From assembly GCF_001542855.1 (NCBI RefSeq), contig NZ_LNBY01000019.1, positions 1-64,000 of the forward strand: 64,000 nt of DNA, in the 5' to 3' direction. This DNA comes from Erythrobacter sp. AP23. Lineage in GTDB: Bacteria > Pseudomonadota > Alphaproteobacteria > Sphingomonadales > Sphingomonadaceae. This document shows positions 1-50,397 of this stretch, one piece after another. The position numbers were made by a program, and so were the translations under genes. A model generated the notes under the pieces. The model ran no database searches and was not told the origin of the DNA. It saw only the letters and a list, made by a program, of their open reading frames with translations. Position 1 is the stretch's first letter, and every line of letters begins with the position of its first letter.

Positions 1-159
1 AGGTGTGGTACTTTCGATTCAGGCGACGCTAGACTACGCTGATGTTGTAAAAACAACGACTTAGCCAAAAATATCTACGCCAGGATTGCCTCCAATTCGC
101 CCCTTTTTCCGCTTGCGTGATTACCCGGTGATTGCCAGAAAAAGGCCACGAGGTATCGC
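1..159. other. Left flank, no gene seen
   Basis: This stretch lies upstream of the integrase and is richer in A+T than the rest of the window. ICE integrases commonly sit next to an attachment site in the 3' end of a tRNA gene, so I looked for a T-arm and acceptor stem. A TTCGATTC string at about 13-20 resembles a T-loop, but its flanks do not pair. The attachment site is therefore either outside the window or not tRNA-based. Confidence 0.4.
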
Positions 160-1374
160 ATGGCAACAGGAAAAATCAGCAAGCGCACGGTCGATTCGCT
201 CCCGGTTGGACCAAAGGAAAACTATCTTTGGGACACCGATCTCAAGGGCTTTGGCGTCAAGATTACAGCTGCTGGATCAATCAGTTACATAATCCAGTTC
301 CGAATGGGCGGACGAGAAGCGAAGACCCGTCGTTTCACGATCGGATCACATGGATCGCCCTGGACACCGACTACTGCACGCTTGGAGGCTGAGCGATTGT
401 TGGTGATTGTTGCGCAGGGCATTGATCCGGTTGATGCGGAAAAGCAGCGCCGACGGGAAGCTGTCGACCTCGCCTTCTCGAATTACGCTGACCTCTTCAC
501 CCGCTCCTGCAAACGCGAGGGATGGCGTCGCCTCGTGGAACGATCCATTCGCCTCTACCTCAAGCCCACATTCGGAATGAAGGCGCTGCCAGCGATTACG
601 AAGATCGACGTCGTATCGGTTCTCGATCAGATGCCGCCCAAGCAGGTGGCAAACCGGCGAAATGTCTTTGCCGTTATGCGGCGCCTGTTTCGCTGGGCCG
701 TGAGTCGCGGAGATATCGATCGCAGTCCGATGGAGGGCATGGAAACGCCGCCTCCGGTCAAGCCACGAGAGCGCTGGCTCAAGGATGGCGAACTCCGCCA
801 TATCTGGGACGCGGCACCGGAATGTCATCGATGCTTTGGTCCAATTGTCAGACTTCTGATCGTGACCGGACAGCGCCGTGAAGAAGTCTCCGGGATGCAA
901 TGGCAGGAGCTCAGTCGCAGCGAAAGATTGTGGACCCTGCCCGGATCTCGGACCAAGAACGGAGAACCAAACTCCATTCCGCTCAACGATCTTGCAATCG
1001 CCGAGCTCGACCGGGAGGCTCGCGGCGAGAAGTGGCCACGCAAAGGCCGCGTCTTTGCGACAGCTAGTGGGGCGGGCTTTACGGGATACGCCAAGGGGAA
1101 GGCGAAACTCGATGGCCTGATCGAGGAACGTCGCGAAGAGCCGCTCGACGCCTGGCGCCTTCATGATCTACGACGAACCCTCGCTACGAACTTTCAGCGG
1201 CTTGGCGTTCGGTTTGAAGTCACCGAAGCCGTTCTCAACCACGTCGGCGGATCTCGTGCCGGAGTCGCCGGCATCTACCAGCGCCACGATTGGAAGGATG
1301 AGAAGCGCGAGGCACTCGATGCCTGGAATGACCACCTCGCGACGGTTCTGTCCGAGAGTGGAGAGACGACCTAA
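160..1374 (+). CDS. Tyrosine recombinase / ICE integrase (DUF4102 type)
   Basis: This 404-residue site-specific recombinase probably integrates and excises the element. The N-terminal third has the DUF4102 arm-binding layout of P4-like integrases (LWDTDLKGFGVKI, residues 22-36). The catalytic set is visible: Arg239 (TGQRREEV), His335 and Arg338 (LHDLRRT), His361 (LNHVGG) and the nucleophile Tyr373 (GIYQRH). The ATG at 160 has only a weak GAGG upstream. The gene stands alone and points into the element, with the quorum-sensing operon converging on it from the right. Length and all catalytic residues suggest an active enzyme. Its directionality partner may be the small HTH protein at 52552-52824, which is inferred from family precedent. 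Confidence 0.93.
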   Translation: MATGKISKRTVDSLPVGPKENYLWDTDLKGFGVKITAAGSISYIIQFRMGGREAKTRRFTIGSHGSPWTPTTARLEAERLLVIVAQGIDPVDAEKQRRREAVDLAFSNYADLFTRSCKREGWRRLVERSIRLYLKPTFGMKALPAITKIDVVSVLDQMPPKQVANRRNVFAVMRRLFRWAVSRGDIDRSPMEGMETPPPVKPRERWLKDGELRHIWDAAPECHRCFGPIVRLLIVTGQRREEVSGMQWQELSRSERLWTLPGSRTKNGEPNSIPLNDLAIAELDREARGEKWPRKGRVFATASGAGFTGYAKGKAKLDGLIEERREEPLDAWRLHDLRRTLATNFQRLGVRFEVTEAVLNHVGGSRAGVAGIYQRHDWKDEKREALDAWNDHLATVLSESGETT

Positions 1375-1994: not shown

Positions 1995-2857
1995 CGCCCG
2001 CTGCGGCGCGTCTCGGCGAACTCACGAACCGCTTCTTTCTGGTCGGGGCGCAGACTATCGGTTGCCTGCGGGAATTCGGGCACCTTGTCGCTCAGCAGAA
2101 CCGACGGGCATTGCCCTTCGAAATTACCCAGGTTCGGGCGGTGCTGCACATAACCGGCCAGTTCGGCGAGTTCGGGCGAGAACTCTTTTGCTACTGCTGG
2201 CGGATAGGCCAGCCAGAGATTCTCGTAGGGTTTGAGCCAGCCGAGACTGTAGCCGATTACGACACCGCGGCGGACATCCTCGGTCTGGTTTGGTCCCGCT
2301 CCATGGACGGTGGAGCCAAGAAAGCAGATGGCATCGCCGGGCTTGCAAACTGCGACTATGGGATCGTCGAGACTTTCGAGATTGTCGACAGGCTTTCTGT
2401 GCGTCCCGGGGTAGATGCGTGTCGCGCCATTGAGGCGAGTAAATTCGGTCAGCGGCCAGATGACGTTGAGAAGATATTCGTGATCGCCCTTGCGGCCTGC
2501 CCACATATCCTGATCGCAATGCGGAAACTGTTCTATCTCGCCGGGATGGATCGCGATCGCCTGGGCGACATTGAGCTGTATCCGGTCGCAGGCGCTGCCG
2601 AGAATTGCGCGGGCGAGCGATAGGACTAGCGGCTGCAGGACCAGATCGCCCGCGACCTGCGAGCGGCGAAGGAGGCTTCCAAACCGTTTGGTCCGATGCC
2701 CATAGAAGTCTCCCTTGCCGAGTGGCGCCTGCGCAAACGCAGCTTCCAGGTCCGCATCGAGTGCGGCGATCTGTTGCTCGGCGACAAGCTGCGGAATGAT
2801 GCAATAGCCATCCTCTTGCAGCTGATCGAGCCAATACGCCTCGCTCGGCGCAGTCAT
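1991..2857 (-). CDS. Phytanoyl-CoA dioxygenase (PhyH) family protein
   Basis: This is a 288-residue Fe(II)/2-oxoglutarate oxygenase. The iron-binding triad is visible as His113-x-Asp115 (QFPHCDQD) and distal His185 (STVHGAGPN), with an Arg shortly after that could bind 2-oxoglutarate. I chose the ATG at 2857 rather than the longer frame because it gives a normal PhyH N-terminus (MTAPSEAYWLDQLQEDGY) and overlaps the luxI stop by four bases. The gene is therefore coupled to luxI upstream and to gntR downstream. PhyH enzymes hydroxylate acyl chains and other small molecules. Co-transcription with an AHL synthase suggests that it modifies the signal or its acyl precursor, which is inference. Confidence 0.86.
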   Translation of the reverse strand: MTAPSEAYWLDQLQEDGYCIIPQLVAEQQIAALDADLEAAFAQAPLGKGDFYGHRTKRFGSLLRRSQVAGDLVLQPLVLSLARAILGSACDRIQLNVAQAIAIHPGEIEQFPHCDQDMWAGRKGDHEYLLNVIWPLTEFTRLNGATRIYPGTHRKPVDNLESLDDPIVAVCKPGDAICFLGSTVHGAGPNQTEDVRRGVVIGYSLGWLKPYENLWLAYPPAVAKEFSPELAELAGYVQHRPNLGNFEGQCPSVLLSDKVPEFPQATDSLRPDQKEAVREFAETRRSGR

Positions 2858-3480
2858 GCTGCCAGCTCCATACCACCATAGGCTTCCGGCTGAGGATTGC
2901 GGCAGTAGATCCCTGCGTTGGCGAGTTGCGCGCGTGTATCCTGATCGATGTCGATGCGAAGAGCGACAAGCTGCTGCCCATCGATAGAAACGCACGGTCC
3001 AAGCTGCTGGCAGCGCCAGCCGAACTGGGCGATCTGACGGAACCAGGGCACTGGGGCGACCGCCGAATAACCAGAGATCCCTTCCGATATTGCAAAATCG
3101 GCGAGTGCGGAGACGAGCTGGTTGCGGACACTCCGGCGATCAGCGCGCGGCAACGTGGGATCGATACAGAATCGGGTAATCTCGCGAAATGCCTCATCCT
3201 GCGGAACAGGTCCGGTGCACAGCTGCGGAAAGAGATCGCGTAAGATATGAGGTCCATCAGAACGCAGGAGCCGGGCCGATGCGCGATGCTCGCACTTTTC
3301 GCCGGTGAGGACGAGATAGGCGGCCGAGGGCGTATCGAACTGGTCGATTTCAAAGGTCCCGTCGAGCACCGGAACGTCCCACCCAAGAAGATCCACGAAC
3401 ACGCGCTTGCGCGCCTCGAACATGGCGCGAAGTGCCGGATCGACCAGGTTTGCACCATTTATACCGCTGCTTTGCTGCAT
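2854..3480 (-). CDS. luxI: Acyl-homoserine-lactone synthase (LuxI/TraI family)
   Basis: This 208-residue enzyme makes an N-acyl-homoserine lactone from S-adenosylmethionine and an acyl-ACP or acyl-CoA. The family's conserved residues are present: Arg24, Phe28, Trp34, Glu44, Asp46 and Asp49 (EIDQFD), Arg70 (SARLL), Phe84, Glu100 and Arg103 (REITRFCI). The frame can be extended to 3675, but the ATG at 3480 places Arg24 and Trp34 at their usual family positions. It is the first gene of the luxI-phyH-gntR operon. The likely receptor gene, luxR, lies at 8247-8999, and the mercury and kinase genes separate the two. No obvious lux box is visible upstream. Confidence 0.93.
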   Translation of the reverse strand: MQQSSGINGANLVDPALRAMFEARKRVFVDLLGWDVPVLDGTFEIDQFDTPSAAYLVLTGEKCEHRASARLLRSDGPHILRDLFPQLCTGPVPQDEAFREITRFCIDPTLPRADRRSVRNQLVSALADFAISEGISGYSAVAPVPWFRQIAQFGWRCQQLGPCVSIDGQQLVALRIDIDQDTRAQLANAGIYCRNPQPEAYGGMELAA

Positions 3481-3698
3481 GAAGATTACCTGTGAACTTG
3501 ATGACTGCTCGCATCTCATCAAATCCGGATAGGCAGCGACATACCAAGAACTGGGGAGGGCCCCGTCTGGCGCAATACAGGGCCAGTTTACTGACCGCCT
3601 TACCTGTGCGATGAGCTTCAGCGATTGAAAATCAACAAGATACGACAGGTATCCTATCGGTCCGATTCTGTTCATCCCGAGAAGGTCACAAGCTGGCT
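3481..3698. promoter_or_regulatory. Divergent intergenic region between luxI and the HWE kinase
   Basis: This 218-base region must hold the luxI promoter (leftward) and the kinase promoter (rightward). TTACCTGTG occurs twice on the + strand (3486-3494 and 3600-3608). The core is also inverted as ACAGGTA at 3645-3651, so TACCTGT/ACAGGTA forms a widely spaced inverted pair. These may be regulator sites, but no classical 18-20 base lux box was found. A GAGAAGG ribosome-binding site precedes the kinase ATG at 3699. Confidence 0.35.
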
Positions 3699-8246: not shown

Positions 8247-8999
8247 CTATCCGACGTCGCGCCAACGGATGATGTCGGCAAACCCGATCAACCCGTCGAA
8301 CAGCGCCGCGACGACGAGGGACTGCTTACAATGGACCTGGTAGCGTTCGCGGGCCATCTTGAGATGCTGAATGACGGTTTCGGTGCTGATTTCGAGAATC
8401 ATGGCCGTTTCAGCTGCAGTCTTCCCTCTTGCAACCCAGAGCAGACACTCCCGCTGCCGATCGGTCAGGGAGGGAACCTTCTCATCGAGTCTTTCTGAGC
8501 TCAGTCCCAGTGCACAGCTCAAAGCCAGCGTCCCGATCACTTCCGCGACGGCGAAACGCCGTCGGGGCAGTTCTCGATCGGGTCGAACAGCAAAGGTGCA
8601 GGTACCGCGCCCTATCCCGGGTAAGTGCCGCGGAACGGTATAGCCATTGCCAATTCCGCATTCCCGGCCAACATTGAGCATCTGACGGTCGCCGCGCGTG
8701 AGAGGGACGAGTTCGTCAATCCAGTCCCAGGCGAAACCGATGATGGTCTTGTCGCAGGCTCTTCGCACCGGATCCTGCCCTGCGAGGTCGAAGGCGATAT
8801 AGACTTTCGCCCATTCGTCGGGATAGTCGTGCAATAGCAAGCCCGGTGCCTCGCACGATGTCGAACGCATCTCCAGGCTAAGTGCGAAGTGGTCGAAGCC
8901 AAGGCGCCGGGAAACCTGTTTAAGGGCGCCATCGAGTTCAGTGTCCGAACGAACATTGATAAGCTCAGTTGCGAATTCCTCCGCGAGATATGCGTACAT
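8247..8999 (-). CDS. luxR: LuxR/TraR-family AHL-responsive transcription factor
   Basis: This 250-residue regulator has an N-terminal autoinducer-binding domain with Trp63, Tyr67, Asp76-Pro77 and Trp91. All are offset by exactly six from TraR's AHL-contacting Trp57, Tyr61, Asp70 and Trp85. The C-terminal LuxR HTH begins near PSLTDRQRECLLWVARG (about residues 178-194). I chose ATG 8999 because the frame extension to 9146 lacks domain homology. It should bind the product of luxI (2854-3480). Its likely targets are fseA, directly upstream on the same strand, and the luxI operon. A perfect lux-box-like dyad lies 5 bases upstream of its start. Confidence 0.92.
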   Translation of the reverse strand: MYAYLAEEFATELINVRSDTELDGALKQVSRRLGFDHFALSLEMRSTSCEAPGLLLHDYPDEWAKVYIAFDLAGQDPVRRACDKTIIGFAWDWIDELVPLTRGDRQMLNVGRECGIGNGYTVPRHLPGIGRGTCTFAVRPDRELPRRRFAVAEVIGTLALSCALGLSSERLDEKVPSLTDRQRECLLWVARGKTAAETAMILEISTETVIQHLKMARERYQVHCKQSLVVAALFDGLIGFADIIRWRDVG

Positions 9000-9003
9000 A
9001 GAC

Positions 9004-9021
9004 CTGCCGTTCGATCGGCAG
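9004..9021. promoter_or_regulatory. Lux-box-like palindrome upstream of luxR
   Basis: CTGCCG-TTCGAT-CGGCAG is a perfect 6-6-6 inverted repeat of 18 bases, the usual lux/tra-box size. It begins five bases upstream of the luxR ATG on the coding strand. A site this close to the start codon would fit autoregulation, probably repression. Binding by LuxR is inferred from architecture only. Confidence 0.45.
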
Positions 9022-9183
9022 CACGCAATCCAACACGCCGCCACCCGACCGCCTGCTCGGTGCCTGATCAGACGGTTCCATTCCACCTGTTCCGGCAGTT
9101 GCAGTTGCGACCCTGAAGGTCTGGTTCCAATCCGGGCGCGCCACAAAATTCAGCGGCTTGCCCAAGGAAAAACCATAGTGCAT

Positions 9184-9967
9184 TCAGTGCGTTTGAAAAG
9201 GTCGGAACCGGCTTTGACGAAGCAGGTCGAGATAGCCGTGCGACGCCATCTTCCGTGCTTCGGCGACAAGACGCTGGGTCTGTCGGCGTTGCGATGACGA
9301 TTTCCAGTCTATGGCGCGTTGCGCGGATAATCCGCGATAGACGAGGGTTCCCGCAATCTCTCGGAGGGTGACACCCTCAGGCGCTCTGGCCTGATTATCG
9401 AGTATGGCGAGCAGCAAGTGGAGGCGTCTGGACTGATAGGTGGTGGGCCGTAAGGGGTATCGCTTGGTGGGCACAGCGGAGCCAGCAACGCAGCGGTGAA
9501 ACGCATCGAGCGCCGCTAGCCTGATCGGAACCGACTGGTCTTGAGGGATCAGATAATTGTCTCCACCCAACCGGGCTGAGGCCATAACGAGCAGCCGGTG
9601 ACGAGCGCCAGTATCGGCGAGGACCAGATGATCTCCCGCATTGCTCGCTCGTTTGGCGATCAGGTCGCACGCTGCGCGCGCCGCCTTGACTCCGCCGCTA
9701 CCGCTGAGAATTACAACATTGGGGTTTTCCTCGGCTCGCCAGATCGCCGGATCGCTGCGAGCCGAAAGGTCGGGATCAATCGGGAAATTCAAGGCCCCAT
9801 GAACGCGCCATTCGGCGGCAAGCTGGGGATTGCGCGTCGAAGCCGCTTGCGCCGGCGATCCGGGCGTATTGTTGCCGGTAAGCGGAATTGCGGCGCAAGA
9901 ATTCCTGCGCGAAATCCGAAAAGTCGTATCCGGCGGTCCGGTCGTTGCTGTCGAATGGTCGAGCCAT
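9184..9967 (-). CDS. fseA: FseA-like excision activator (DUF6499-DUF2285), expressed by +1 frameshift
   Basis: The gene spans two frames. The first encodes 63 residues (9967 to the TGA at 9776-9778) and has the DUF6499 pattern YDFSDFAQEFLRRNSAYRQQY ending WGLEFPD. The second frame continues the family sequence (FPIDPDLSARSDPAIWRAEE) into a DUF2285 extended-turn HTH domain (REIAGTLVYRG to YLDLLRQ). The join is GAA-TTT-C-CCG, so tRNA-Phe slipping from UUU to UUC yields one 260-residue protein. This is the mechanism published for FseA of ICEMlSymR7A. A strong AAGGAGG site precedes the ATG. The gene lies just upstream of luxR on the same strand, as expected for a quorum-sensing target. A simple inactivating frameshift is the alternative. 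Confidence 0.85.
9784..9787 (-). promoter_or_regulatory. Programmed +1 ribosomal frameshift site (UUUC)
   Basis: On the minus strand the zero frame reads GAA TTT CCC GAT TGA and stops. The +1 frame reads GAA TTT (C) CCG ATT GAT. The motif lies in the conserved WGL-x-FP segment of the DUF6499 domain, where Mesorhizobium FseA is known to shift. The stop codon follows the slippery Phe codon by only two codons. Confidence 0.8.
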
Positions 9968-10374
9968 GAAGCACCTCCTTTCTCGCCGATTGGGCTAGTG
10001 GCGCCAGCACCGCGCCGACATTCCAAGACCAAGGTATCCACTTCCCCAATATTGGGCATATTTGATCAGGCGCTCCCCGAGACCGGAGCATTTTTTTGGA
10101 AGATGATGCTGGCCGCCAAAAGCGGGTCCAAAATGGCTCTACTTACCTCTTGCCAGCCACCCCTATGTTGGGCAGATTGACTGCGCGCGGATTGATATTC
10201 TGGCACCGTCCGCGTGGATATTTCCGCCGGACATCATGCACGCCGGTCCGTCGCAGGCCCGGCGGCCGAACCGATCAAGGGGCGTAAATCAGGCCCCGGA
10301 CGGCGGCACAGACCTGGAACCCGCACCAGTTCGCCATGGCGAACTCAGGTGGCGGTCGCCTCCAAGTTCGAAGC
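9968..10374. promoter_or_regulatory. Divergent region between fseA and the lasso-cluster sigma factor
   Basis: This gap holds the fseA leader on the minus strand and, in the other direction, the promoter of the ECF sigma gene. A perfect 12-base palindrome, CCCAATATTGGG, lies at 10045-10056, about 80 bases upstream of the fseA ATG. It is the best operator candidate here, possibly for LuxR-AHL. No additional gene is convincing. Confidence 0.4.
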
Positions 10375-10956: not shown

Positions 10957-11076
10957 CTGCAACCACCCGGCACAAAAAGACCCCCCAAACTTTAATTTCA
11001 AATGAAACTAAGGTGTTCGAAAAAGTGAGCGTCATTCCCTGTAGCGGCCCGACCGCGCCAGAACAGGGAGACCCCA

Positions 11077-18430: not shown

Positions 18431-18667
18431 TTATCGACTTGATGATGCATGCGTTCTTCTGCGTGCCTTGGCGAAATCCCGGTCACTGGCGACGAAGCGC
18501 TCGATCATTGGTGGGATCAGAGCTGCGGGCTCGGGTGCACCCTCTGAAACGCCGCCATTGAGCACGACCCCATATTCGACCAGCCGGCGATGGAGCCGCG
18601 CAGGGATCTCTATCGTCAGCTTGACGGGCTTGCCATCGGTAATGTCGGAGAGCTTGAGCCGGGTCAT
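18431..18667 (-). CDS. DUF2274 family protein
   Basis: This 78-residue protein matches the DUF2274 pattern: L-K-L start, DGKPVKLTIEIPARLHRRLVEYG, then LIPPMIERFVASDRDFAKARR. It looks like a ribbon-helix-helix type small DNA- or protein-binding module. It is the last gene of the trb operon and overlaps trbI by four bases, its usual place in alphaproteobacterial ICEs. Function unknown. Confidence 0.85.
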   Translation of the reverse strand: MTRLKLSDITDGKPVKLTIEIPARLHRRLVEYGVVLNGGVSEGAPEPAALIPPMIERFVASDRDFAKARRRTHASSSR

Positions 18668-19842
18668 GCTCCACCCTCCAGCACAATATCGCGCGTCACC
18701 AGAACGCGTACGGGAAAGCCGGGACGGATCGTCAGCGTCGGGCGTATATCAAGCTCGCGTGCAACGACCTGCTCGCCCGCGCGATTGATGCTGTCCTGGC
18801 TGCCGCGGCGAACAGCGCGCAGCAGGTCATCATCTCCGCCTGCGCCGAGTTCGCCGCCAATTCCGAGCAAAGTGGAAACGAGCGCCGCTTTGACGACACC
18901 GCCCCAATGGTAATCGACGCCGTCCTCCAGTCCAGCATAGCCCGAGGGATCGGCAACTGGCTGACGATCGAGCACAATCGAGCGACCATCAGGCAGGATA
19001 AGCCTGGTCCAGGCCAGCAGCACCCGGCGTTGGCCGAACCCGACATCGGACTCGTACTCACCGATGAGGCGCGCACCTTGCGGGATCAGAAGGTGCCGCC
19101 CGGTCAGGCTGTCATAGACATTCTCGGTCACCTGCGCGGTCACGAGGCCGGGCTGGTCCGACCGGATACCGGTGATCAGCGCTGCCGGAATGATCGACCC
19201 GGCCGAAAGCAGCGTCCCCGATGGCACCGCCTCAAGCCGCTGCATGGACACTGTCCGCGTGTCGGCGGGCCGTTCGAGAAAACTCGGCCGCGCGGTGGAG
19301 ACCGATGGCTGAACTGGTGCTGGGGGTTGCGGCCCAGCAGCCGAAGCTGCCGGGCCGGGACTGGCAGCTTGTGTCCCGCCGCCGAAAAACAGGCTGCTGC
19401 CGCGCGCCGCCTCGCTTTCCTGTTCTAGGCGTTCGCGCTCAATCTCTTCAGGGCTCGGCGCCGCCCGCTGTGACGGTGTCGGAGACGGGGCGCCGACCGG
19501 TTGAAGCGCGGCAACAGCCCCGCGATCCTGCGCCTCGAGGATCGGTTGACCGAGATCGCCCGGTAGCGGTGGCCCTAACCTCGGAACCTGGGAATAGTCC
19601 GCCGGGGCAGTGGCAAGTCCGTCTGCCACAGCAATCCCCTCGGTGTTGACCAGCTCTTCGCCGCCGTCCTGCGAAGCCGGTTGCAGGGCGTAGAGCAGTA
19701 TACCGCCAAGCACGGCCAGACCCGCGGCGCTGGCAATGCCGATAGCCTTGCGCGAGAGCCTGACCACGCGCGGTCCTTCCCCGCGCAATTGAACGATGCT
19801 TTCGGCATCGGGTGGCGGCTCGGTCTTGCTTTCCTCGTTCAC
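18664..19842 (-). CDS. trbI: Conjugal transfer protein TrbI (VirB10-like)
   Basis: This 392-residue protein has an N-terminal cytoplasmic segment, one transmembrane helix (IGIASAAGLAVLGGILLYAL, about residues 33-52), a Pro-rich periplasmic linker and a C-terminal VirB10 beta-barrel domain (IPAALITGIRSDQPGLVTAQV; RLIGEYESDVGFGQRRVLLAW). It spans inner to outer membrane in the transfer channel. Its start overlaps the trbG stop by four bases. Confidence 0.93.
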   Translation of the reverse strand: MNEESKTEPPPDAESIVQLRGEGPRVVRLSRKAIGIASAAGLAVLGGILLYALQPASQDGGEELVNTEGIAVADGLATAPADYSQVPRLGPPLPGDLGQPILEAQDRGAVAALQPVGAPSPTPSQRAAPSPEEIERERLEQESEAARGSSLFFGGGTQAASPGPAASAAGPQPPAPVQPSVSTARPSFLERPADTRTVSMQRLEAVPSGTLLSAGSIIPAALITGIRSDQPGLVTAQVTENVYDSLTGRHLLIPQGARLIGEYESDVGFGQRRVLLAWTRLILPDGRSIVLDRQPVADPSGYAGLEDGVDYHWGGVVKAALVSTLLGIGGELGAGGDDDLLRAVRRGSQDSINRAGEQVVARELDIRPTLTIRPGFPVRVLVTRDIVLEGGA

Positions 19843-20828
19843 GACCGCCCCCGCTTGCGGTTTTCAATCTTCACGCGGACCTGTCTGCGACCGGTACCGA
19901 GGCGCAGTTCGGCCTTGTGGAAGAGGCGGTCGACGATGAGATAGCGCCCGGCGATCCGGTAGTTGACCAGCTCGGCTGCGCCATCCGTGCCCACCACGAA
20001 GAACGGGGGCATTTCGCCCTGGGCGATATCGGGTGGAAACTCGACCAGGGTCCGCTGTCCGTCGTCGAAGACCCGTAGCGGGCGCCAGTCAGGCTTGGCA
20101 CCCGAGATGCGGTACTCGAAATTGAGCGCCTCAAGCGTGAACCCGTCGGCGACTGGTGCGGCTCGCGCCGCTCGCTCTTCTTCGCGGCGCAGCGCGATCA
20201 GTTCGTCGGCCGGATAGGACCAGCTGACCGAGGCCATATAGATGTTCGGGTTGGCGCGCAGTTCGATATGATAGGTGCGGCGGTCGGTATTGATGACCAG
20301 ATTGGTTGCGATATCGGGCCGCGTCGGTTTGATGAGGATATGAACCCGCTGCGTCGCTCCCGAGCCGCTCAGCGTGTCGCCGATCATCCAGCGCACGGTA
20401 TCACCCGCCGCGACCGGCCCGGGTCCAACCAGCGTTTCGCCTTCCTGCAAGGCGATGTCAGTTACCTGCCCGGGTTTGGCGTAGACCTGGAACAATGCAC
20501 CTTCGCGATAGGCAAAGCGCTGGATGGCATTGTCGAACCCGGCATCGTCCGGTTCGATCCTGGCGGCCTCGTTCGCCGCTCCCACATGCCCCCCTGGGTC
20601 AGAGGCAGGGGAGCGGCGCGCGGCAGTGGGGGAGGCCTGCCGCGAAGGGGTGGTCGCATGTGCCAAGGCCCGAACAAGGCGGGAAGCATCGGCGAGGTCG
20701 GAGGCGGTGATCGCCCGCAATGCGGCCTGCGCCTGCGGCGCAGGCGTCGCTGCTGCCGGCGATCCGGCAAGGAGCAGAACGCCGGCTGCGAGCAGCGGCG
20801 GACGGGAGAGTTGAAGTAAATGGGTCAT
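19839..20828 (-). CDS. trbG: Conjugal transfer protein TrbG (VirB9-like)
   Basis: This 329-residue periplasmic/outer-membrane component has a signal peptide (PPLLAAGVLLLAGSPAAA) and an Ala/Pro-rich N-terminal linker. The VirB9 domain starts around IQRFAYREGALFQVYAKPGQVTDIALQEGE and ends with YLIVDRLFHKAELRLG. It partners TrbI in the core complex. Start and stop overlap both neighbours, so it lies firmly inside the operon. Confidence 0.92.
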   Translation of the reverse strand: MTHLLQLSRPPLLAAGVLLLAGSPAAATPAPQAQAALRAITASDLADASRLVRALAHATTPSRQASPTAARRSPASDPGGHVGAANEAARIEPDDAGFDNAIQRFAYREGALFQVYAKPGQVTDIALQEGETLVGPGPVAAGDTVRWMIGDTLSGSGATQRVHILIKPTRPDIATNLVINTDRRTYHIELRANPNIYMASVSWSYPADELIALRREEERAARAAPVADGFTLEALNFEYRISGAKPDWRPLRVFDDGQRTLVEFPPDIAQGEMPPFFVVGTDGAAELVNYRIAGRYLIVDRLFHKAELRLGTGRRQVRVKIENRKRGRS

Positions 20829-21508
20829 CAGCCAAGCTCCTTTGACCAGTTGATCGAGGTGACGAAGATCCCGAGCGGATTGCTGGTGAGCGCGTCGGGC
20901 GTTCTGGGAGGCTGGACGGCAACGCCGAGAATAGCGGTCCAGCGAGTGGTTTCGGCGAGCGCGCCGTCACGGTAGCGCCGCTCGACCCAGGCCACGCGAA
21001 AGCTGCGCGGCGAGGCACGGATCACGCTGGTGACATCGACCGCAACCTGTTCGCGGCCGATTGCCGCGAACGGGTCGTTGGCCCGCGCATAATCGTTGAG
21101 CGCCAAGGCGCCCTTGTCGCTGGCGAATTGGTAGGCTCTGAGCCAGTTCTCTCGCACCACAATTGGATCGTCGGGGATAGCGCGGACATGCTCGATAAAC
21201 CGGGCGAGGTGAAAGGCGATCTGCGGATCGGTCGGCTCGTAATCCGCAGCGGCGGGAGCTACGGTGCGGGCCTCGCCCAGCCTGTCGACCTCGACCACCC
21301 AGGGCACGATGGTGCCGCGCGCATTCTGCCACACGAGCCCGCCGGTCAGCGCTGCCGACAGGCCGAGCGCACCGAAAAAGGCGTAGCGCCAACTCTTTGC
21401 CTGGACGCGCGCGGAACCGATGCGCTCGTCCCAGACCTGCGCCGCGCGCTGGTAGGGCGTCTCTGCTTGAGGCGTTTTTGCGTACCGGATCGAAGGCCGT
21501 TTGAACAT
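20828..21508 (-). CDS. trbF: Conjugal transfer protein TrbF (VirB8-like)
   Basis: This 226-residue inner-membrane protein has a cytoplasmic N-terminus (NPYQRA-like motif TPYQRAAQVWDERIG), one transmembrane helix (YAFFGALGLSAALTGGLVW) and a periplasmic NTF2-like VirB8 domain (HLARFIEHVRAIPDDPIVVR). It nucleates assembly of the secretion channel. One base overlaps trbG. Confidence 0.93.
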   Translation of the reverse strand: MFKRPSIRYAKTPQAETPYQRAAQVWDERIGSARVQAKSWRYAFFGALGLSAALTGGLVWQNARGTIVPWVVEVDRLGEARTVAPAAADYEPTDPQIAFHLARFIEHVRAIPDDPIVVRENWLRAYQFASDKGALALNDYARANDPFAAIGREQVAVDVTSVIRASPRSFRVAWVERRYRDGALAETTRWTAILGVAVQPPRTPDALTSNPLGIFVTSINWSKELG

Positions 21509-21514
21509 TGGAGG

Positions 21515-22828
21515 CTAATCCTTCTCTTTGGTGTCGATGGAAGCGCCTGCACCATGGCCATCACCGGAGCGCACGGTGTGCGCGGCAAGCGAGGCCGAGT
21601 GCCCCAGGCTTTGCCTGTGCTTCATGGACCGCGCCCAGGCCGGCGGGCCGTTCGTCTGTTCCGGATCCGGTGACGAAGCACCGTGAGCAGGAACGATGCG
21701 TCCACCCATGTTCCCGACCGACGCACGCGCCCCGTCGCGGAAATTACTCTTGGCGCTGTCTGCCGCCTTGCGCAGCGGCGACATGGCGGCACCGCCTGCT
21801 GCGCGGCCAACACCCGCCATTCCGCCTGCAACCGCGGCGCCGCCGCTCTTGCCCGCCGAACCGGTGGCATAGGCCATGGTCGCACCTCCGGCGGCGCGCG
21901 AGGTGCCTCGCGCGACGGAAGAGGCAGCACTGGCGACCGCGCCGCCCGCAAGTTTGGCACCGGCCACGCCGCCAACCGCAGCACCGCCTGCAAGAAGCGC
22001 GGTGCCCGCAGCAGCGCCTGCACCGAGCTGCGGACCGCCCGCGACAATGCCATTGGCGATCCCCGGCCCGAAAATGCCCAGACCGAGCAGAGTGAGGCTG
22101 GCGAGCACGATGGCCAGCGCATCCTCGATGGTCGGCTCGCCGGGGATGGCGCCGGTGAATTCGGCGAAGAGCGTCGAACCGATGCCGATGATGACGGCGA
22201 GAACGAGCACCTTGATTCCCGACGAGACCACATTGCCGAGCACGCGTTCAGCGAGGAATGCGGTCTTGCCAAACAAGCCAAAGGGAATGAGCACGAAACC
22301 CGCCAAGGTCGTCAGTTTGAACTCGATCAGGGTGACGAACAGCTGGATAGAGAGAATGAAGAAGGCGATGATGACAATCGCCCAGGCGACCAGCAGAATG
22401 ATGATCTGCAGAAAATTCTCGAAGAAGCCGACATAGCCCATCAGATCGGCAATCGATTCGAGGAGCGGCCAGGCGGCATCGATGCCGACCTGCGCCACCC
22501 TTCCCGGTTGCAACAGATCGCCTGCGCCGAGCCCCGAGCCACTCGCCTTCAGGCCTAGCCCGGCGAAACTGTTGAACACGATATTGGCGAGCGCGCTCCA
22601 GTTGCCGATGATGTAGGCAAAGATGCCGACGAAGAGCGTCTTCTTGACGAGCCGGGCGATGATGTCGTCGTTCGCGCCCCAGCTCCAGAAAAGGGCGGCG
22701 AGCGTGACATCGATCACGATCAGCGTGGTCGCGATGAACGCCACCTCGCCAGAAAGCAGCCCGAAGCCGCTGTCGATATATTGCGAGAAGATCGCGAGGA
22801 AGCGATCGACAACACCGGTGCCACCCAT
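21515..22828 (-). CDS. trbL: Conjugal transfer protein TrbL (VirB6-like)
   Basis: This 437-residue polytopic inner-membrane protein has at least five hydrophobic segments between about residues 25 and 265. The C-terminal 170 residues are rich in Gly and Ala (GAGAAAGTALLAGGAAVGG) and end in a hydrophilic tail. I chose ATG 22828 (MGGTGVVDRFLAIFSQYID) over the longer frame because the VirB6-like region begins there. It forms part of the inner-membrane pore. Confidence 0.92.
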   Translation of the reverse strand: MGGTGVVDRFLAIFSQYIDSGFGLLSGEVAFIATTLIVIDVTLAALFWSWGANDDIIARLVKKTLFVGIFAYIIGNWSALANIVFNSFAGLGLKASGSGLGAGDLLQPGRVAQVGIDAAWPLLESIADLMGYVGFFENFLQIIILLVAWAIVIIAFFILSIQLFVTLIEFKLTTLAGFVLIPFGLFGKTAFLAERVLGNVVSSGIKVLVLAVIIGIGSTLFAEFTGAIPGEPTIEDALAIVLASLTLLGLGIFGPGIANGIVAGGPQLGAGAAAGTALLAGGAAVGGVAGAKLAGGAVASAASSVARGTSRAAGGATMAYATGSAGKSGGAAVAGGMAGVGRAAGGAAMSPLRKAADSAKSNFRDGARASVGNMGGRIVPAHGASSPDPEQTNGPPAWARSMKHRQSLGHSASLAAHTVRSGDGHGAGASIDTKEKD

Positions 22829-22829
22829 G

Positions 22830-23156
22830 TCAGTTCTCCCTTCGCGCTTCACTGGGCAAGGACTCAGGCAGCGCCTTGTCGCCGATCCCCGAATAAGCCT
22901 CGGGGTGATCGACGCCAAAGAAGCGGCGGCGCTTCTCGGCCCAGGCGGCGCGGCAATCGGGCGAGGACAGCGCCAGTTCGCCGATTTGAGCGCAAACCCT
23001 CAGCTGTGCCGGCAGCGGATCGCCGTCGGGCACCCATATGCGCCGGTCGGCTTGCCGCACCGGCGCGGGCTCCTCGCGCAGCTGGACGATCGTCGTCGCG
23101 ATGGCGAGACCGACGAACACAGCGGCACCGGTGCGCGCGAGGAGCTTGGTGTCCAT
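22830..23156 (-). CDS. trbK: Entry-exclusion protein TrbK-alt
   Basis: This 108-residue protein has one N-terminal transmembrane helix (GAAVFVGLAIATTIVQL) and a periplasmic part with two cysteines (RVCAQIGELALSSPDCRAAW) that could form a disulfide. Position between trbJ and trbL and the CAxIG...DC pattern fit TrbK-alt. By family it would block redundant transfer into cells that already hold the element. Confidence 0.83.
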   Translation of the reverse strand: MDTKLLARTGAAVFVGLAIATTIVQLREEPAPVRQADRRIWVPDGDPLPAQLRVCAQIGELALSSPDCRAAWAEKRRRFFGVDHPEAYSGIGDKALPESLPSEARREN

Positions 23157-23162
23157 CGCGGA

Positions 23163-23909
23163 TCAGTCCGATCCGCCGGGCAGATAGCGCGGACGAATAG
23201 CGAGAAACCGCCCCAACTGCTCGCGCGCCTGTGCCTTGGCCGCCGCGCGTTCGGCGGCATCGAGCGCCTGCGCCCTGCCAGTAGCGGCGATCGTGGCGGT
23301 CAGGTCGGCCAGCTGGCGGGCCTGCAATGCCAGCAGCTGGTTGCCAGCCTGTGCTGCCTGCAAGGCGCCCGTGGCGGACTGGCTTGCGGAAACGAGGCTG
23401 CCGAGCGCATCGCGCGAACCTTCGATATTGGCAACCGTGCCCGCCTGGACCTTGAGGGCATCTTCGAAGGCCGCCACGCTGTTTTGCCAGCGCGCCTCGG
23501 CGCCTTCGACCATCGCCCGCTGCGAGGCACCGAGCGGTACGTTCTTGTAATGCTGGTCGAAAGCGCCCTCGATGGTGCGGACATCGTAGGCGATGCGCTG
23601 GGCTTCGTTCAGCAGTTGCTGGGTCTGCCGGATCTGGTCCTGCAGGGGCTGCACGATCGTCAGCGGCAGGCTCTGAAGGTTCTTCGCCTCGTTGATGAGC
23701 GACGTCGCCTGGTTCTGCAGCATGCGGATCTGGTTGTTGATCTGCTCAAGCGTGCGCGCGGCAGTCAGCACGTTTTGCGCGTAATTGGACGGATCGTAAA
23801 CGATCCCGCCGAACTGGGCGTGTGCAGGCGTTGATACCAAGGTGCTCGTACTCGCCAAGGCGAGCGCGGTGCCCATGGCCATGCTGCGGACGATTTTTCG
23901 AGAGGTCAC
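23163..23909 (-). CDS. trbJ: P-type conjugative transfer protein TrbJ (VirB5-like)
   Basis: This 248-residue secreted protein has a signal peptide (MAMGTALALASTSTLVSTPAHA), the conserved start FGGIVYDPSNYAQNVLTAARTLEQINNQI and then long amphipathic helices. It is a minor pilus-tip or adhesion component. It overlaps trbE by four bases. Confidence 0.92.
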   Translation of the reverse strand: MTSRKIVRSMAMGTALALASTSTLVSTPAHAQFGGIVYDPSNYAQNVLTAARTLEQINNQIRMLQNQATSLINEAKNLQSLPLTIVQPLQDQIRQTQQLLNEAQRIAYDVRTIEGAFDQHYKNVPLGASQRAMVEGAEARWQNSVAAFEDALKVQAGTVANIEGSRDALGSLVSASQSATGALQAAQAGNQLLALQARQLADLTATIAATGRAQALDAAERAAAKAQAREQLGRFLAIRPRYLPGGSD

Positions 23910-26368
23910 TTCAGGTCTCCTTCTGGTGGGTTTGGGGGGTCGGAAGAGTGCGCATCGCTGCCGAGCAATTCGGCGGCCCAGTGGAGGCCGCGATACCTCA
24001 GCCAGTGGACGGCAAAGCCGCTCCGACCATGCTTTTCGATGATGCGGGACATAGCGAGCTGGTCGCTCTTGGAAGAAGCGGCGGCAAAGGCGAGCGCCAC
24101 TTCGCCAAGGCCAAGTTCGAACAGGCGATTGCCGCGAGAGGACTGACAGTAATAATCGCGCTTGGCCGTTGCCCGGCTGAGGATTTCAATCTGGCGGTCG
24201 TTCAGTCCGAAGCGGCGATAGATACCCAAAATCTGGGGTTCGACCGCCCGGTCATTGGGCAGGAAAATGCGCGTCGGACAGCTTTCGATAATCGCCGGCG
24301 CGATCGCCGAGGTCTCGATATCGGCAAGGCTTTGAGTGGCGAAAACGACGCTCGCATTCTTCTTGCGCAGGGTCTTGAGCCATTCGCGCAGCTGCGCGGC
24401 GAAGGCCGGACTGTCGAGCACCAGCCAGCCTTCGTCGATAATAATGAGTGTGGGCGAGCCGTCGAGGCGACCTCCGATACTGTGAAACAGATATGACAGC
24501 ACGGCGGGCGCAGCCGCCGATCCGGTCAGCCCTTCGGTCTCGAACGCCTGGAAACTCGCTTCGCCCAGCCGTTCGCTTTCGGCATCGAGGAGCCGTCCGA
24601 ACGGCCCACCGACGCAGTAGGGGGCAAGCGCCTGCTTCAATGCCTGCGATTGCAAAAGGACAGCAAGTCCGGTGAGCGTGCGCTCAGCGACCGGGGCGCT
24701 CGCCAGCGAGCTCAGCGCCGACCACAGATGATCCTTGGTCTCCGGATCGATTGCGACACCCTCCGCAGCGAGGATCGCCTGGAGCCATTCCGAGGCCCAG
24801 TTCCGCTCCGCCGGCTCATCGATCCGCGCCAGCGGTTGCAGCAGGACTGCCTCGTCGCTGTCCTCGGACAGACTCGATCCCAGATCCTGCCAATCGCCGC
24901 CGCAGGCGAGCGCCGCCGCACGGATCGAGCCGCCGAAATCGAAAGCGAAAATTTGCGACCCGGCATAGCGGCGAAACTGCAGCGCCATCATTGCCAGCAA
25001 GACCGATTTGCCCGCCCCGGTCGGACCGACGACGAGGCTGTGTCCGACATCGCCGACATGAAGCGAAAATCGGAACGGGGTCGAGCCTTCGGTCTTGGCG
25101 TAAAACAACGGCGGCGCGTCAAAATGCGTATCGCTTTCCGGTCCGGCCCAGACGGCCGAAAGCGGCATCATATGCGCAAGGTTCAGCGTCGAGATCGGGG
25201 GCTGGCGAACATTGGCGTAGACATGGCCGGGCAGCGATCCGAGCCAGGCCTCGATCGCATTCATGCCTTCGGTCACGCAGGTAAAATCGCGTCCCTGGAT
25301 GACCTTCTCGACCAGCCGCAGCTTCTCGGCGGCAAGCGCTGGCTCTTCGTCCCACACCGTAACGGTCGCGGTGACCAGCGCGAGCCCGACATGGTCGGCG
25401 CCCAGCTCCTGTAGAGCGGCATCGGCATCCTCGGCCTTGTTGGCTGCATCGTTGTCGACCAGCACCGAAGCCTCGTTGGTCATCACTTCCTTGAGGATCG
25501 CGGCGACCGATTTGCGCTTGGCGAACCACTGGCGGCGGATTTTCGAAAGCAGCTTCGTCGCGTCGCTCTTGTCGAGCATGATCGCCCGCGTCGACCAGCG
25601 ATAGGCGAAGCCCTGCGCATTGAGTTCATCGAGCAGCCCGGGGAAGGTCGCGCTAGGAAAGCCGATCACGGTCAGCGTCCGCAGATGGGCCGTACCCAGG
25701 CGCGGTTCGAGACCGCCGGTCAGCGGCTCGTCGGCAAGCAGCGCATCGAGATGCATCGGGGTTTCGGGAACGCGTACATCGTGCATCCGCGTCGAGATGC
25801 AGCTGTGAAGATAACTCAGTGTCTCGCCATCATCGAGCCATTGGACCTCTGGGAAGAACCCTTCGAACAGGCGCAGCAGCCGGTCGGTCCGATCGGCGAA
25901 GCCCTCGAGAAGCTCGCGCGGATCCACGCCCCTCTCGGCCTTGCCTTCGTAGAGCAAGCTTTCAGCCCGCGCGGCATCCTCGGCAGGAGGCATCCACAGG
26001 ACGGTCAGATAATAGCGGCTCTCGAAATGTGTGCCCTCCTCTGCGAACTGCGCGGCGCGCTCTCGTTCGACCAGTGCCGAGGCCGGATCGGGAAAGGCGC
26101 AGACGGGATAATCCAGTGCCGGACGGCGCACCGCCTCGACGAAGAGAGCCCAGCCAGACCCGAGCCTGCGCAGAGCACTGTTCAAGCGCGCCGTCATTGC
26201 AACCAGTTCGGCAGGGGTCGCGCTGTCGAGATCCGGCCCGCGAAAGCGAGACGTGCGCTGGAAGCTGCCGTCCTTGTTGAGCACGACGCCGGGGGCGACG
26301 AGCGCCGCCCATGGCAGGAAGTCCGCAAGCCGGTCGGCCTTGTTCCGATATTCGCGCAAGCTCAGCAT
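23906..26368 (-). CDS. trbE: Conjugal transfer ATPase TrbE (VirB4-like)
   Basis: This 820-residue cytoplasmic/inner-membrane ATPase powers pilus assembly and substrate transfer. It has a Walker A (GPTGAGKSVLLAMM, roughly residues 450-463), a Walker B (PTLIIIDEGWLVLDS) and the motif ATQSLADIETS typical of VirB4. The N-terminal CagE/TrbE domain is complete. The start MLSLREYRNKADRLADFLPW is the family norm. Confidence 0.95.
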   Translation of the reverse strand: MLSLREYRNKADRLADFLPWAALVAPGVVLNKDGSFQRTSRFRGPDLDSATPAELVAMTARLNSALRRLGSGWALFVEAVRRPALDYPVCAFPDPASALVERERAAQFAEEGTHFESRYYLTVLWMPPAEDAARAESLLYEGKAERGVDPRELLEGFADRTDRLLRLFEGFFPEVQWLDDGETLSYLHSCISTRMHDVRVPETPMHLDALLADEPLTGGLEPRLGTAHLRTLTVIGFPSATFPGLLDELNAQGFAYRWSTRAIMLDKSDATKLLSKIRRQWFAKRKSVAAILKEVMTNEASVLVDNDAANKAEDADAALQELGADHVGLALVTATVTVWDEEPALAAEKLRLVEKVIQGRDFTCVTEGMNAIEAWLGSLPGHVYANVRQPPISTLNLAHMMPLSAVWAGPESDTHFDAPPLFYAKTEGSTPFRFSLHVGDVGHSLVVGPTGAGKSVLLAMMALQFRRYAGSQIFAFDFGGSIRAAALACGGDWQDLGSSLSEDSDEAVLLQPLARIDEPAERNWASEWLQAILAAEGVAIDPETKDHLWSALSSLASAPVAERTLTGLAVLLQSQALKQALAPYCVGGPFGRLLDAESERLGEASFQAFETEGLTGSAAAPAVLSYLFHSIGGRLDGSPTLIIIDEGWLVLDSPAFAAQLREWLKTLRKKNASVVFATQSLADIETSAIAPAIIESCPTRIFLPNDRAVEPQILGIYRRFGLNDRQIEILSRATAKRDYYCQSSRGNRLFELGLGEVALAFAAASSKSDQLAMSRIIEKHGRSGFAVHWLRYRGLHWAAELLGSDAHSSDPPNPPEGDLK

Positions 26369-29355: not shown

Positions 29356-29425
29356 AGCCTAAAACTTCGTACAAGAGGCGCGGGCAGGGTTGCCAACTGG
29401 GGGAAATCCCCAGTAGGAACAAATC

Positions 29426-42073: not shown

Positions 42074-42544
42074 CTACGCCGGAGGCTCTGGGCTGCTTCC
42101 GTCTGTCTTCTCGACCTCACCAAGCTCTGGTTCCGGGACCGCGCGAATGAGATCGTCAGCGAGATGCCTGCCCGTTTCCATGCGCCGCGCGAGCGCTTCG
42201 ACGAAGAAGTCGAACCGCTTTTCCGCATCGGCACGCGCGGCGGCATTGGCTTCAAACGGCATGGCCGGGGTCACCGCCAGCCATCGCCTGAGGTAGAGCG
42301 CGAATGCCTCGTTCCCGACCTCGATATGATAGTCGAGCTTGCCGATCTGTCGGCTTATGCGATCAAGGCGTCGACTGAAGGCCGCTTCCATGCGTTCCGA
42401 TCCATCGGGAGAGAGAAACGAGCCGATCGCGGCCTCCACCACCGAAGCCTGCGAAACGCGCTTGCGACCCGCATAGTCCGCAAGCTGCCTGGAAAGGGCT
42501 GGCGGCAGACGGAAGGTATGCTTGATACGGTTGCCCTTGCTCAT
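42074..42544 (-). CDS. Ribbon-helix-helix conjugation-associated protein
   Basis: This 156-residue protein has an N-terminal RHH fold (KHTFRLPPALSRQLADYAGRK, then VSQASVVEAAIGSFL), a coiled-coil-like middle and a C-terminal helix. It lies immediately after traG with a four-base overlap, the usual place of a CopG-type protein between traG and trbB in these elements. It may bind oriT DNA or regulate transfer genes. Here the trbB neighbour has been pushed 14 kb away by cargo. Confidence 0.78.
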   Translation of the reverse strand: MSKGNRIKHTFRLPPALSRQLADYAGRKRVSQASVVEAAIGSFLSPDGSERMEAAFSRRLDRISRQIGKLDYHIEVGNEAFALYLRRWLAVTPAMPFEANAAARADAEKRFDFFVEALARRMETGRHLADDLIRAVPEPELGEVEKTDGSSPEPPA

Positions 42545-44535
42545 AGCTCGATCCCGTCGCCGGGATCGAGCGCAGCGCGCCGCGCATTGGCCTGCATCCG
42601 CTGGGCCATTCTGCGATTGCGGTTTGCCTGATCGTCGTCCGTTCGGTCGTCAAACTCAAATTCGTTGGGGATCTCGACTGGCGGCGGCGCCACATCTTCG
42701 TATTCCGGCAATTCGGGCGATTGGCGGATCCCGCCATCGGACTGGTGATCATCGACCTCGTACTCTTCGGACTCGGTCAGCAATTTCGCGGATTGCGAAG
42801 GCGCGGTCACATGTCTCCCGTGCCATTCGCTCCCGTCCGCCGCAAACTCCGACTTCTCGACCTTCGGTGGACGCTCCACCCGTTTGCTGAGCCGGGGGTC
42901 GCGGTAGTAGCGCGCTTTCCTGGCACGGATCGGATGCACGCCTGCGAGCATCACGATTTCGTCGGTGTCGGGCAGCTGCATGATTTCGCCCTGGGTCAGA
43001 AGAGCGCGCGCCGTCTCCGAGCGCGAGACCATCAGGTGACCAAGCCACGGAGAGAGGCGGTGTCCGGCATAATTGCGCATCGCCCGGGTTTCGGTCGCAG
43101 TCCCGAGCGATTCCGAAACGCGCTTGGCAGTGCGCTCATCATTGGTCGCGAAGCACACCCGCACATGGCAATTGTCGAGAATGGCATTGTTCTGCCCGTA
43201 GGCTTTCTCGATCTGATTCAATGACTGGGCGATCAGAAAGGCCTTGATGCCGTAGCCCGCCATGAAGGCGAGCGCGCTTTCGAAAAAGTCGAGCCTACCC
43301 AAGGCAGGAAACTCGTCGAGCATAAGGAGAAGCCGCTCGCGAACGGCACCTTCCTGCAGATCCTCGGTCAGACGTCTTCCGAGCTGGTTGAGAATGAGCC
43401 GGATGAGCGGCTTGGTGCGGCTGATGTCTGACGGCGGAACGACGAGATAGAGCGTGACTGGGCGGCCCTGTGCCACGAGGTCCGCGATGCGCCATTCGCA
43501 GTGCCGCGTGACCTTTGCGATAACCGGATCGCGGTACAGGCCGAGGAACGACATGGCGGTCGAGAGCACGCCCGAGCGTTCGTTCTCCGACTTGTTGAGC
43601 AATTCTCGCGCCGCGCTCGCGACAACCGGATGGACGCCGTCTTCCCCCAGATGCGGTGTGTGCATCATTGCGGTCAGTGTCGCCTCGATGGATCGGCGTG
43701 GATCGGAGAGGAAGTTCGCCACCCCGGCGAGCGTCTTGTCAGGCTCGGCATAAAGCACATGCAGAATGGCCCCGACGAGCAGCGCGTGGCTGGTCTTTTC
43801 CCAGTGATTGCGCCGTTCAAGCGAGCCTTCCGGATCGACCAGCACGTCGGCGATGTTCTGCACGTCGCGCACCTCGTTGATGCCGCGTCGCACTTCCATC
43901 AGAGGGTTATAGGCCGCCGATGCCTCATTGGTCGGATCGAACAGAAGCGTGCGGCTGAACCGGGTACGGAAACCAGCTGTCAGCTCCCAGTTCTCGCCTT
44001 TGATATCGTGCACGATCGCCGAATGCGGCCAGGTCAGGAGCGTTGGCACGACAAGGCCGACCCCTTTGCCGCTGCGGGTCGGCGCGAAGCAGAGCACATG
44101 TTCGGGGCCGTCGTGACGAAGATAGAGATTGGCATGCTGGCCGATAATGACGCCCTTGCCTGCCAGAAGGCCCGCGCGTGAAATTTCGGAACGGGTCGCC
44201 CAGCGCGCCGAGCCATATGTCGCGCTGTTCCTGATCTCTCGGGCGCGCCAGACCGACATGCCGATCGCGACCGCCACCGACACGAGACCGCCCGATGCGG
44301 CAATCATTCCGCCGGTCTCGAAGATGCGCGGCGCATAGGCTTCGTAGCTGAACCACCACCAAAAGATGGCATAAGGCGGATAGACAAGCGCTCCGGAGAT
44401 ACTGAACCAGGGCGCGCCCAGCTGCGCCTGATAGCCAAGCGCGTGCGCCGTCCACTGGGTGCCCGCCCACACACCTGCGAGCGTTAGGGTGAAGACGACG
44501 AGTATCTGACCCCACAATATCCGGGTTGCCGACAA
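42541..44535 (-). CDS. traG: Type IV coupling protein TraG (VirD4-like)
   Basis: This 664-residue protein has two N-terminal transmembrane helices, a Walker A (CFAPTRSGKGVGLVVPTLL, about residues 149-167), a Walker B (LLLMLDEFPALGRLD) and the DxxQ-like FLIAQSLNQIEKAYG. It recruits the relaxase-DNA complex to the Trb channel. The C-terminal 120 residues are acidic and hydrophilic. Confidence 0.95.
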   Translation of the reverse strand: MSATRILWGQILVVFTLTLAGVWAGTQWTAHALGYQAQLGAPWFSISGALVYPPYAIFWWWFSYEAYAPRIFETGGMIAASGGLVSVAVAIGMSVWRAREIRNSATYGSARWATRSEISRAGLLAGKGVIIGQHANLYLRHDGPEHVLCFAPTRSGKGVGLVVPTLLTWPHSAIVHDIKGENWELTAGFRTRFSRTLLFDPTNEASAAYNPLMEVRRGINEVRDVQNIADVLVDPEGSLERRNHWEKTSHALLVGAILHVLYAEPDKTLAGVANFLSDPRRSIEATLTAMMHTPHLGEDGVHPVVASAARELLNKSENERSGVLSTAMSFLGLYRDPVIAKVTRHCEWRIADLVAQGRPVTLYLVVPPSDISRTKPLIRLILNQLGRRLTEDLQEGAVRERLLLMLDEFPALGRLDFFESALAFMAGYGIKAFLIAQSLNQIEKAYGQNNAILDNCHVRVCFATNDERTAKRVSESLGTATETRAMRNYAGHRLSPWLGHLMVSRSETARALLTQGEIMQLPDTDEIVMLAGVHPIRARKARYYRDPRLSKRVERPPKVEKSEFAADGSEWHGRHVTAPSQSAKLLTESEEYEVDDHQSDGGIRQSPELPEYEDVAPPPVEIPNEFEFDDRTDDDQANRNRRMAQRMQANARRAALDPGDGIEL

Positions 44536-50064: not shown

Positions 50065-50397
50065 TCAGCCCTTTGCCGGGCGGCGCGCGCCGCGCGACCA
50101 TATAAGGACATGGTTCTGGTCGTCAGAACTGAACAGATTGGCGCGCAGGGGCCGAGGCAATACCGGATCGTCGATGACGAGCGTGACAAAACTGCCTGCC
50201 TTGTCGCCGACATGTTTCCAGCCTGCACCCACCTCGTAGGTTTCCTCGCCTTCACCTGCCATGATGCGATAGTCAGGGGCGTTCTCGGTGTCGCCGGGGT
50301 CGGCGGCCACCAGGGTCAGCGGTGCGTCGATGGTCAGGGTTTGCAGCCGCCCTTCAAAGCCGTCGGGTGTGGCTGCAAAAGTGCCGATACAGGTCAT
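50065..50397 (-). CDS. DUF736 family protein
   Basis: This 110-residue cytoplasmic protein matches DUF736: start IGTFAATPDGFEGRLQTLTID, middle NAPDYRIMAGE, then EVGAGWKHVG, VTLVIDDPVLPRPLRANLF and the C-terminal HVLIWSRG. It is common in alphaproteobacterial conjugative operons; function unknown. It overlaps traF by four bases. Confidence 0.88.
   Translation of the reverse strand: MTCIGTFAATPDGFEGRLQTLTIDAPLTLVAADPGDTENAPDYRIMAGEGEETYEVGAGWKHVGDKAGSFVTLVIDDPVLPRPLRANLFSSDDQNHVLIWSRGARRPAKG

Follow-up and report, generated by a model that had tools for sequence, protein, structure and literature searches.

A frameshifted activator is a known way of keeping the transfer of an ICE rare. In FseA (Msi172-Msi171) of ICEMlSymR7A from Mesorhizobium japonicum, as described in the available part of PMC10359603, a DUF6499 domain is followed by a DUF2285 domain and the two are joined by a +1 frameshift. 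The same part of that survey (NAR 2023) covers 4709 FseA homologues, ~61% of which need the +1 site, reports FseA-like genes with a conserved +1 site throughout the gamma-, beta- and alpha-proteobacteria, and notes a UGGGGG stretch at FseA junctions. The word stem "sphingo" does not occur in that portion of its text, and no paper on the element of Erythrobacter sp. AP23 was among the matches listed in our literature search. A first-pass annotation of the AP23 DNA had claimed that its gene carries such gating into a remote group of hosts, a claim to which the survey's report across three proteobacterial classes leaves no novelty; frameshifted fseA is already in print, and the AP23 gene is a well-preserved further example.

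The AP23 locus further resembles ICEMlSymR7A in its candidate LuxR-type control and in an rdfS homologue with an inverted repeat as the presumed target, which in AP23 is a likeness of sequence (available parts of PMC11963761 and PMC5882170). It differs from that element in that luxR lies directly downstream of fseA, with luxI ~5 kb and rdfS ~43 kb away, in the absence of a detected QseM-like gene, in its cargo, and in apparent integration at trmB as opposed to the tRNA-Phe of R7A. QseM-linked sphingomonad fseA genes, such as those at loci L144 and L158, share the DUF6499-DUF2285 pair in +1 register with TTT at the junction, but they have a DUF2285-only gene just upstream, rdfS ~0.1 kb downstream and no LuxR/LuxI match. 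RovC of Yersinia (PDB 6xz5), after which PF10074 is named, belongs to the same superfamily (E 0.0003, query positions 15-78 only, in the DUF6499 half), but it activates a type VI secretion system and not ICE excision (available part of PMC10359603). The prfB gene (RF2) likewise combines a +1 slip with an upstream SD-like stretch (available part of PMC12421855), although it slips at CUU beside a premature stop, whereas the stop of fseA is not adjacent and its distance is not conserved.

The fseA gene of AP23

The window analysed here is the whole 64,000-nucleotide stretch of AP23 DNA, and its fseA gene lies on the minus strand in two parts. A DUF6499 (Trans_reg_dom) frame of 63 codons that stops at TGA (9776..9967; PF20109, E 5.7e-15) is preceded by the ribosome-binding site AGGAGG (9974..9979, minus strand) ahead of its ATG, and a second part in the +1 frame (9184..9783) holds the middle region and DUF2285 (RovC_DNA-bd; PF10074, E 1.8e-22). 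The ORF list gives the open frame that overlaps the first part as 9184..10059 (minus strand). An in-frame ATG at ~9586 (minus strand), 66 codons past the junction and just before DUF2285, could yield a QseM-like internal product. On the minus strand the join reads TGG GGC CTT GAA TTT CCC GAT TGA, with the slip site UUU_C at 9784..9787 and 0-frame codons GAA UUU CCC GAU UGA; when the C after TTT is skipped, a scripted fusion returns a single 260-aa protein, in which the predicted peptide across the join is SWGLEFPIDPDLSAR. The motif AQEFLRRN of the AP23 gene is one residue off the AWEFLRRN-like motif of the family, and the +1 site that the FseA family has between its domains is present as TTT_C. 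Judged by its sequence, the AP23 DUF6499-DUF2285 pair is an FseA homologue with an intact +1 slip site, and the two-frame layout, the strong ribosome-binding site and the FseA assignment all stand as the first-pass annotation had given them.

We consider it very probable that this gene encodes an excision activator of FseA type, belonging to an ICE like ICEMlSymR7A, and is gated by +1 slippage at UUU. The published model for this reading is the R7A circuit, as laid out in the available parts of PMC11963761 and PMC5882170. LuxR with homoserine lactone would activate fseA from an upstream dyad, and most ribosomes would stop at the UGA two codons past the slip codon, giving a short DUF6499 protein. 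A minority would slip +1, with peptidyl-tRNA-Phe moving from UUU to UUC, and so make the 260-aa activator, which would bind the inverted repeat upstream of rdfS and bring about excision and transfer. In ICEMlSymR7A FseA, too, the slip is reportedly from UUU to UUC. Because no QseM-like gene was detected in the AP23 genome, where fseA is the sole PF10074 match (one Pfam model), post-transcriptional restraint in this element probably comes mainly from the frameshift. The AP23 copy, in a marine sphingomonad element with quorum-sensing genes and no detected antiactivator, could serve to test the effect of the frameshift alone.

Conservation of the slip codon in homologues

Scripted pairing of DUF6499 with DUF2285 over 218 loci, some of which contain the same gene, returned 212 pairs, of which 168 were +1, 41 shared one frame and 3 fitted neither, and a redundancy filter at <=90% identity kept 161 (124 +1, 34 same frame, 3 other). 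The junction motif was recognised in 118 of the 124 +1 rows, to which all counts below refer unless stated; two of these rows are identical around the junction, and the rows are related to one another, so significance drawn from them is overstated. The slip codon is TTT in 117 of 118 (99/100 and 85/86 under stricter redundancy limits), the exception being AGT in L049, and the base that follows is C in 111 and T in 7, a pyrimidine in every row. This compares with a background of 266 TTT among 816 Phe codons of the same genes (0.326, ~33%) and with 12 of 48 at the Phe of the FLRRN motif, which served as a matched control and is present in 85 of the 118 rows. At the aligned position, the 19 of 34 same-frame homologues that have the motif carry TTC in 9, TTT in 1, Tyr in 4 and other codons in 5. 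Setting UUU-C against UUC in this way upholds the claim that the slippery codon is conserved. The accompanying claim, that the nearby stop is conserved too, fails: the 0-frame stop falls within 2 codons in only 12 of 118 rows, at 3-10 codons in 34, at 11-50 in 61 and beyond 50 in 11, and a stop two codons past the slip codon is confined to the AP23 lineage and a few others.

The six +1 rows that lack the motif were inspected individually. L074 and L120 have TTT_C at the join; L157 and L181, near 10150, carry TGT or TGG at the usual slip place, with TTT_C two codons further on, suggestive of a displaced slip site; L201 has TGT at the join and no TTT_C; and the sixth is a misplaced duplicate of L119, a locus already represented correctly in the 118. 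The clear exceptions to a TTT slip codon are thus L049 and L201. The pairs of L194, L180 and L080 lie in neither register, possibly through another indel. Five named plasmid genes outside the census (three from Mesorhizobium, one from Novosphingobium and one from Agrobacterium vitis) all read TTT plus a pyrimidine where the frames meet, and all five records annotate fseA as two proteins. In M. japonicum, a plasmid-borne gene of strain MAFF303099 reads TTT_C.

Sequence context of the junction

Upstream of the slip codon, AP23 carries the SD-like stretch UGGGG (9795..9799, minus strand), for which -4.7 kcal/mol was computed on the identical letters of L122. Median SD-like pairing is -9.1 kcal/mol in split homologues (n=118), -5.8 in same-frame homologues (n=19) and -2.7 in random stretches, so the stretch of the AP23 lineage is weak against the median of split homologues, and frameshift efficiency may accordingly be low there. 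An excess of GGG at the Gly codon (71/118) was considered as a slip signal and rejected, since same-frame homologues show GGG too (8/19).

A further regularity was found immediately before the slip codon, where an Arg, when present, is encoded by CGA in 30 of 31 homologues (28/29 and 23/24 under stricter limits), compared with 366 of 3746 Arg codons in the same genes and 12 of 167 for the Arg pair in FLRRN. Same-frame homologues with Arg at that position use CGC in 4 of 4, but these are distant relatives. The AP23 gene has GAA before its slip codon, and CGA is therefore a trend of the family and not a feature of the AP23 copy. E-site pairing strength is reported to oppose +1 slippage at the RF2 site in the available part of PMC6321510, in which the authors' own limited mutagenesis did not find E-site pairing to be the main cause of the switch studied. 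The CGA trend is absent from the available parts of the published FseA accounts that we compared. The synonymous-site signature as a whole (UUU, a pyrimidine next, and CGA before it when Arg) is clear and could be used by annotation tools.

Regulatory genes and neighbours of fseA

Directly downstream of fseA lies a LuxR-type (TraR-like) regulator (8247..9146, minus strand), and a LuxI/TraI-type acyl-homoserine-lactone synthase is found at 2854..3675 (minus strand). A candidate lux/tra box, the dyad CCCAATATTGGG (10045..10056), precedes the fseA ATG by 83 bp, measured from its centre. In 15 of 17 LuxR-linked genes a dyad resembling CCCANNANTGGG has its midpoint 81-83 bp ahead of the fseA start, and a dyad score of 8 or 9 of 9 is reached in 11 of 17 LuxR-linked compared with 1 of 74 QseM-linked genes. 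The pattern was drawn from the AP23 lineage, so the weight lies in the fixed position and in the distant rows (L163, L021, L137); a 12-mer with <=2 mismatches to the dyad is not rare by chance in the window.

The presumed target gene of FseA, at 52552..52824 (minus strand), encodes 90 aa with the look of an HTH protein; it had no NCBIfam match, and we take it to be an RdfS homologue from its position and general likeness. Relatives at E <= 1e-10 occur in 84 of 298 genomes of the family. Five genomes from four other genus groups encode an RdfS with 100% identity to this one, and the fseA genes of the named non-Stakelama relatives are <=82% identical. Upstream of rdfS stands an FseA-box-like inverted repeat, GCGACA-N18-TGTCGC (52911..52940, minus strand), which occurs once in the window and also in 5 of 100 shuffles; this chance count and that for the dyad are lenient, the FseA-box pattern having been taken from the site itself and the lux-box pattern from the AP23 lineage. 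Upstream regions of rdfS were found for 19 of 30 loci (15 non-redundant), and 12 of the 15 share G(C/T)GAC-N17-21-TGTC(A/G)CTCC, which begins 116-118 bases ahead of the start codon, while the repeat is absent from L228, L236 and L246. The FseA box is described in print as a pair of inverted hexamers that precede rdfS and are separated by 15-16 bp (available part of PMC10359603); the AP23 repeat agrees roughly with this description in spacing and distance, and its boundaries differ somewhat.

Neighbours were assigned for 103 non-redundant fseA genes whose flanks were long enough (600 bases upstream, 500 downstream). They are LuxR in 15 (either side within 1.5 kb), an upstream DUF2285-only, QseM-like gene in 68, neither in 20 and both in 0, and the LuxR-linked genes are in +1 register in 15 of 15. 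That LuxR and a QseM-like gene never both stand beside fseA, together with the CGA preference before the slip codon, is what these data add to the available parts of the published accounts. A tree of 158 rows built with FastTree groups 13 of the 14 LuxR-linked rows in a single clade (98*), nested among the QseM-linked ones, and requires at least 11 changes between the split and the same-frame state. The exclusion may thus rest on few events, and the slip site has persisted while the neighbouring genes changed. L173 has LuxR and LuxI genes ~8 kb from its fseA-rdfS pair, and R7A has both TraR and QseM (available part of PMC5882170), which makes the exclusion a local one and no general rule. Tentatively, and at slightly less than an even chance, we propose that the +1 slip could be a fixed gate with exchangeable input, supplied in sphingomonads by LuxR/LuxI or by a DUF2285 antiactivator but not by both, in a cassette to which, next to UUU-pyrimidine, an E-site codon under selection (CGA when Arg) would also belong.

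Alternative explanations of the split gene

The DUF2285 part might also, or only, be made without a frameshift. Translation would then begin at an upstream ATG in the +1 register (10059) or inside the gene, and an internal start immediately ahead of DUF2285 would produce a protein resembling QseM. Among 15 LuxR-linked loci, 11 do have a +1 frame that is open for at least 80 codons upstream of the junction and contains an ATG or GTG, yet in the other four (L129, L013, L016, L021) it is open for only 2-51 codons and has neither. An ATG or GTG 50-89 codons after the junction is present in 12 of 14 LuxR-linked genes (ATG in 10) versus 52 of 76 QseM-linked genes (ATG in 21), but the places of such starts vary (codon 54-69 and beyond), and none has an SD-like match of at least 5 of 6 (0/14 and 0/76). 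Free initiation of DUF2285 would not demand UUU, moreover, and the activator of ICEMlSymR7A is the fused protein (available part of PMC10359603). Overall we judge this route very improbable; from the start positions and the missing SD-like match, a free start is unlikely as the sole route to DUF2285, and a side product is possible.

A slip at the next codon, from CCC to CCG, would give the same peptide as the UUU slip in the AP23 copy, so the claim that only slippage at the Phe codon joins the frames was too strict. CCC is also the commonest next codon (67 of 118). That codon varies, however (CGC 34, CCT 6, others 11), against an invariant UUU, which leaves UUU as the favoured position and a CCC slip with very little likelihood.

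Even less credible is decay, in which a frameshift mutation would have split a formerly single-frame activator gene. Same-frame homologues do exist (34 of the 161 non-redundant pairs), and fseA evolves faster than its neighbours, with dN/dS between AP23 and L122 at 0.46 (DUF6499) and 0.45 (DUF2285) compared with 0.06 for luxR. Against it, the same junction recurs in relatives of other genera, the conserved slip codon speaks strongly for a maintained site, and each half has a dN/dS below 1 in 11 of 11 comparisons. Six of these involve AP23 (DUF6499 0.11-0.46, DUF2285 0.28-0.45) and five are among relatives (0.23-0.83 and 0.24-0.51). Close pairs, AP23 versus L122 included, are the weakest evidence of constraint, and one DUF6499 pair stands at 0.83. 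With the near-invariant UUU and the pyrimidine in every row, these values bear out the earlier argument against random decay. A sequencing error, with one extra base in the AP23 assembly, is very unlikely because other genomes carry the same frame break.

The mobile element

Gating by +1 slippage at UUU would operate in an element with the gene set of an ICE: a tyrosine integrase (160..1374, plus strand), mating-pair genes for TrbI, CagX, VirB8 and TrbL with a CagE_TrbE_VirB/TraG P-loop ATPase (18664..26368), a TraG-type coupling protein (42541..44535) and an RlxS-type relaxase (45830..47572; NF041267 at E 3e-165, below the curated cut-off, and DUF3363). A TraF-type signal peptidase (50394..51407; TIGR02771 at 97.0 bits, just below the cut-off of 100.25) and a replication initiator protein A (RPA; 51661..52542) follow, and all of these except the integrase are on the minus strand. 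Together with rdfS and LuxI/LuxR, this gene content looks like that of an ICE of the ICEMlSymR7A kind and accords with the first reading of such an element in a sphingomonad.

Insertion is apparently at trmB, the 3' end of which (1..32, plus strand) would mark the attachment-site side. In the AP23 genome trmB is interrupted where contig C18 ends, and C19 starts with its final codons; in the relatives from Stakelama marina (L122) and Qipengyuania citrea (L130) the integrase adjoins a putative trmB. No second copy of the 17-base end pattern, at <=1 mismatch, was found that could be attR. The window contains no tRNA as attachment site, and in 14 relatives there is one tRNA, at the far end of L130.

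Several further gene blocks lie in the window. The stretch 10336-17902 encodes an ECF sigma factor, a TonB receptor, an S9 peptidase, an asparagine synthase and a transglutaminase-like protein, probably a lasso-peptide cluster by this gene pattern. A defence-like block at 27745-37097 comprises a class-V aminotransferase, DUF4007, a GmrSD restriction enzyme and a 1122-aa protein with weak ATPase-domain matches only, and a single ORF at 41016-41975 matches both nucleotidyltransferase and HEPN domains. Genes for copper resistance protein CopB and a multicopper oxidase lie at 58279-61388.
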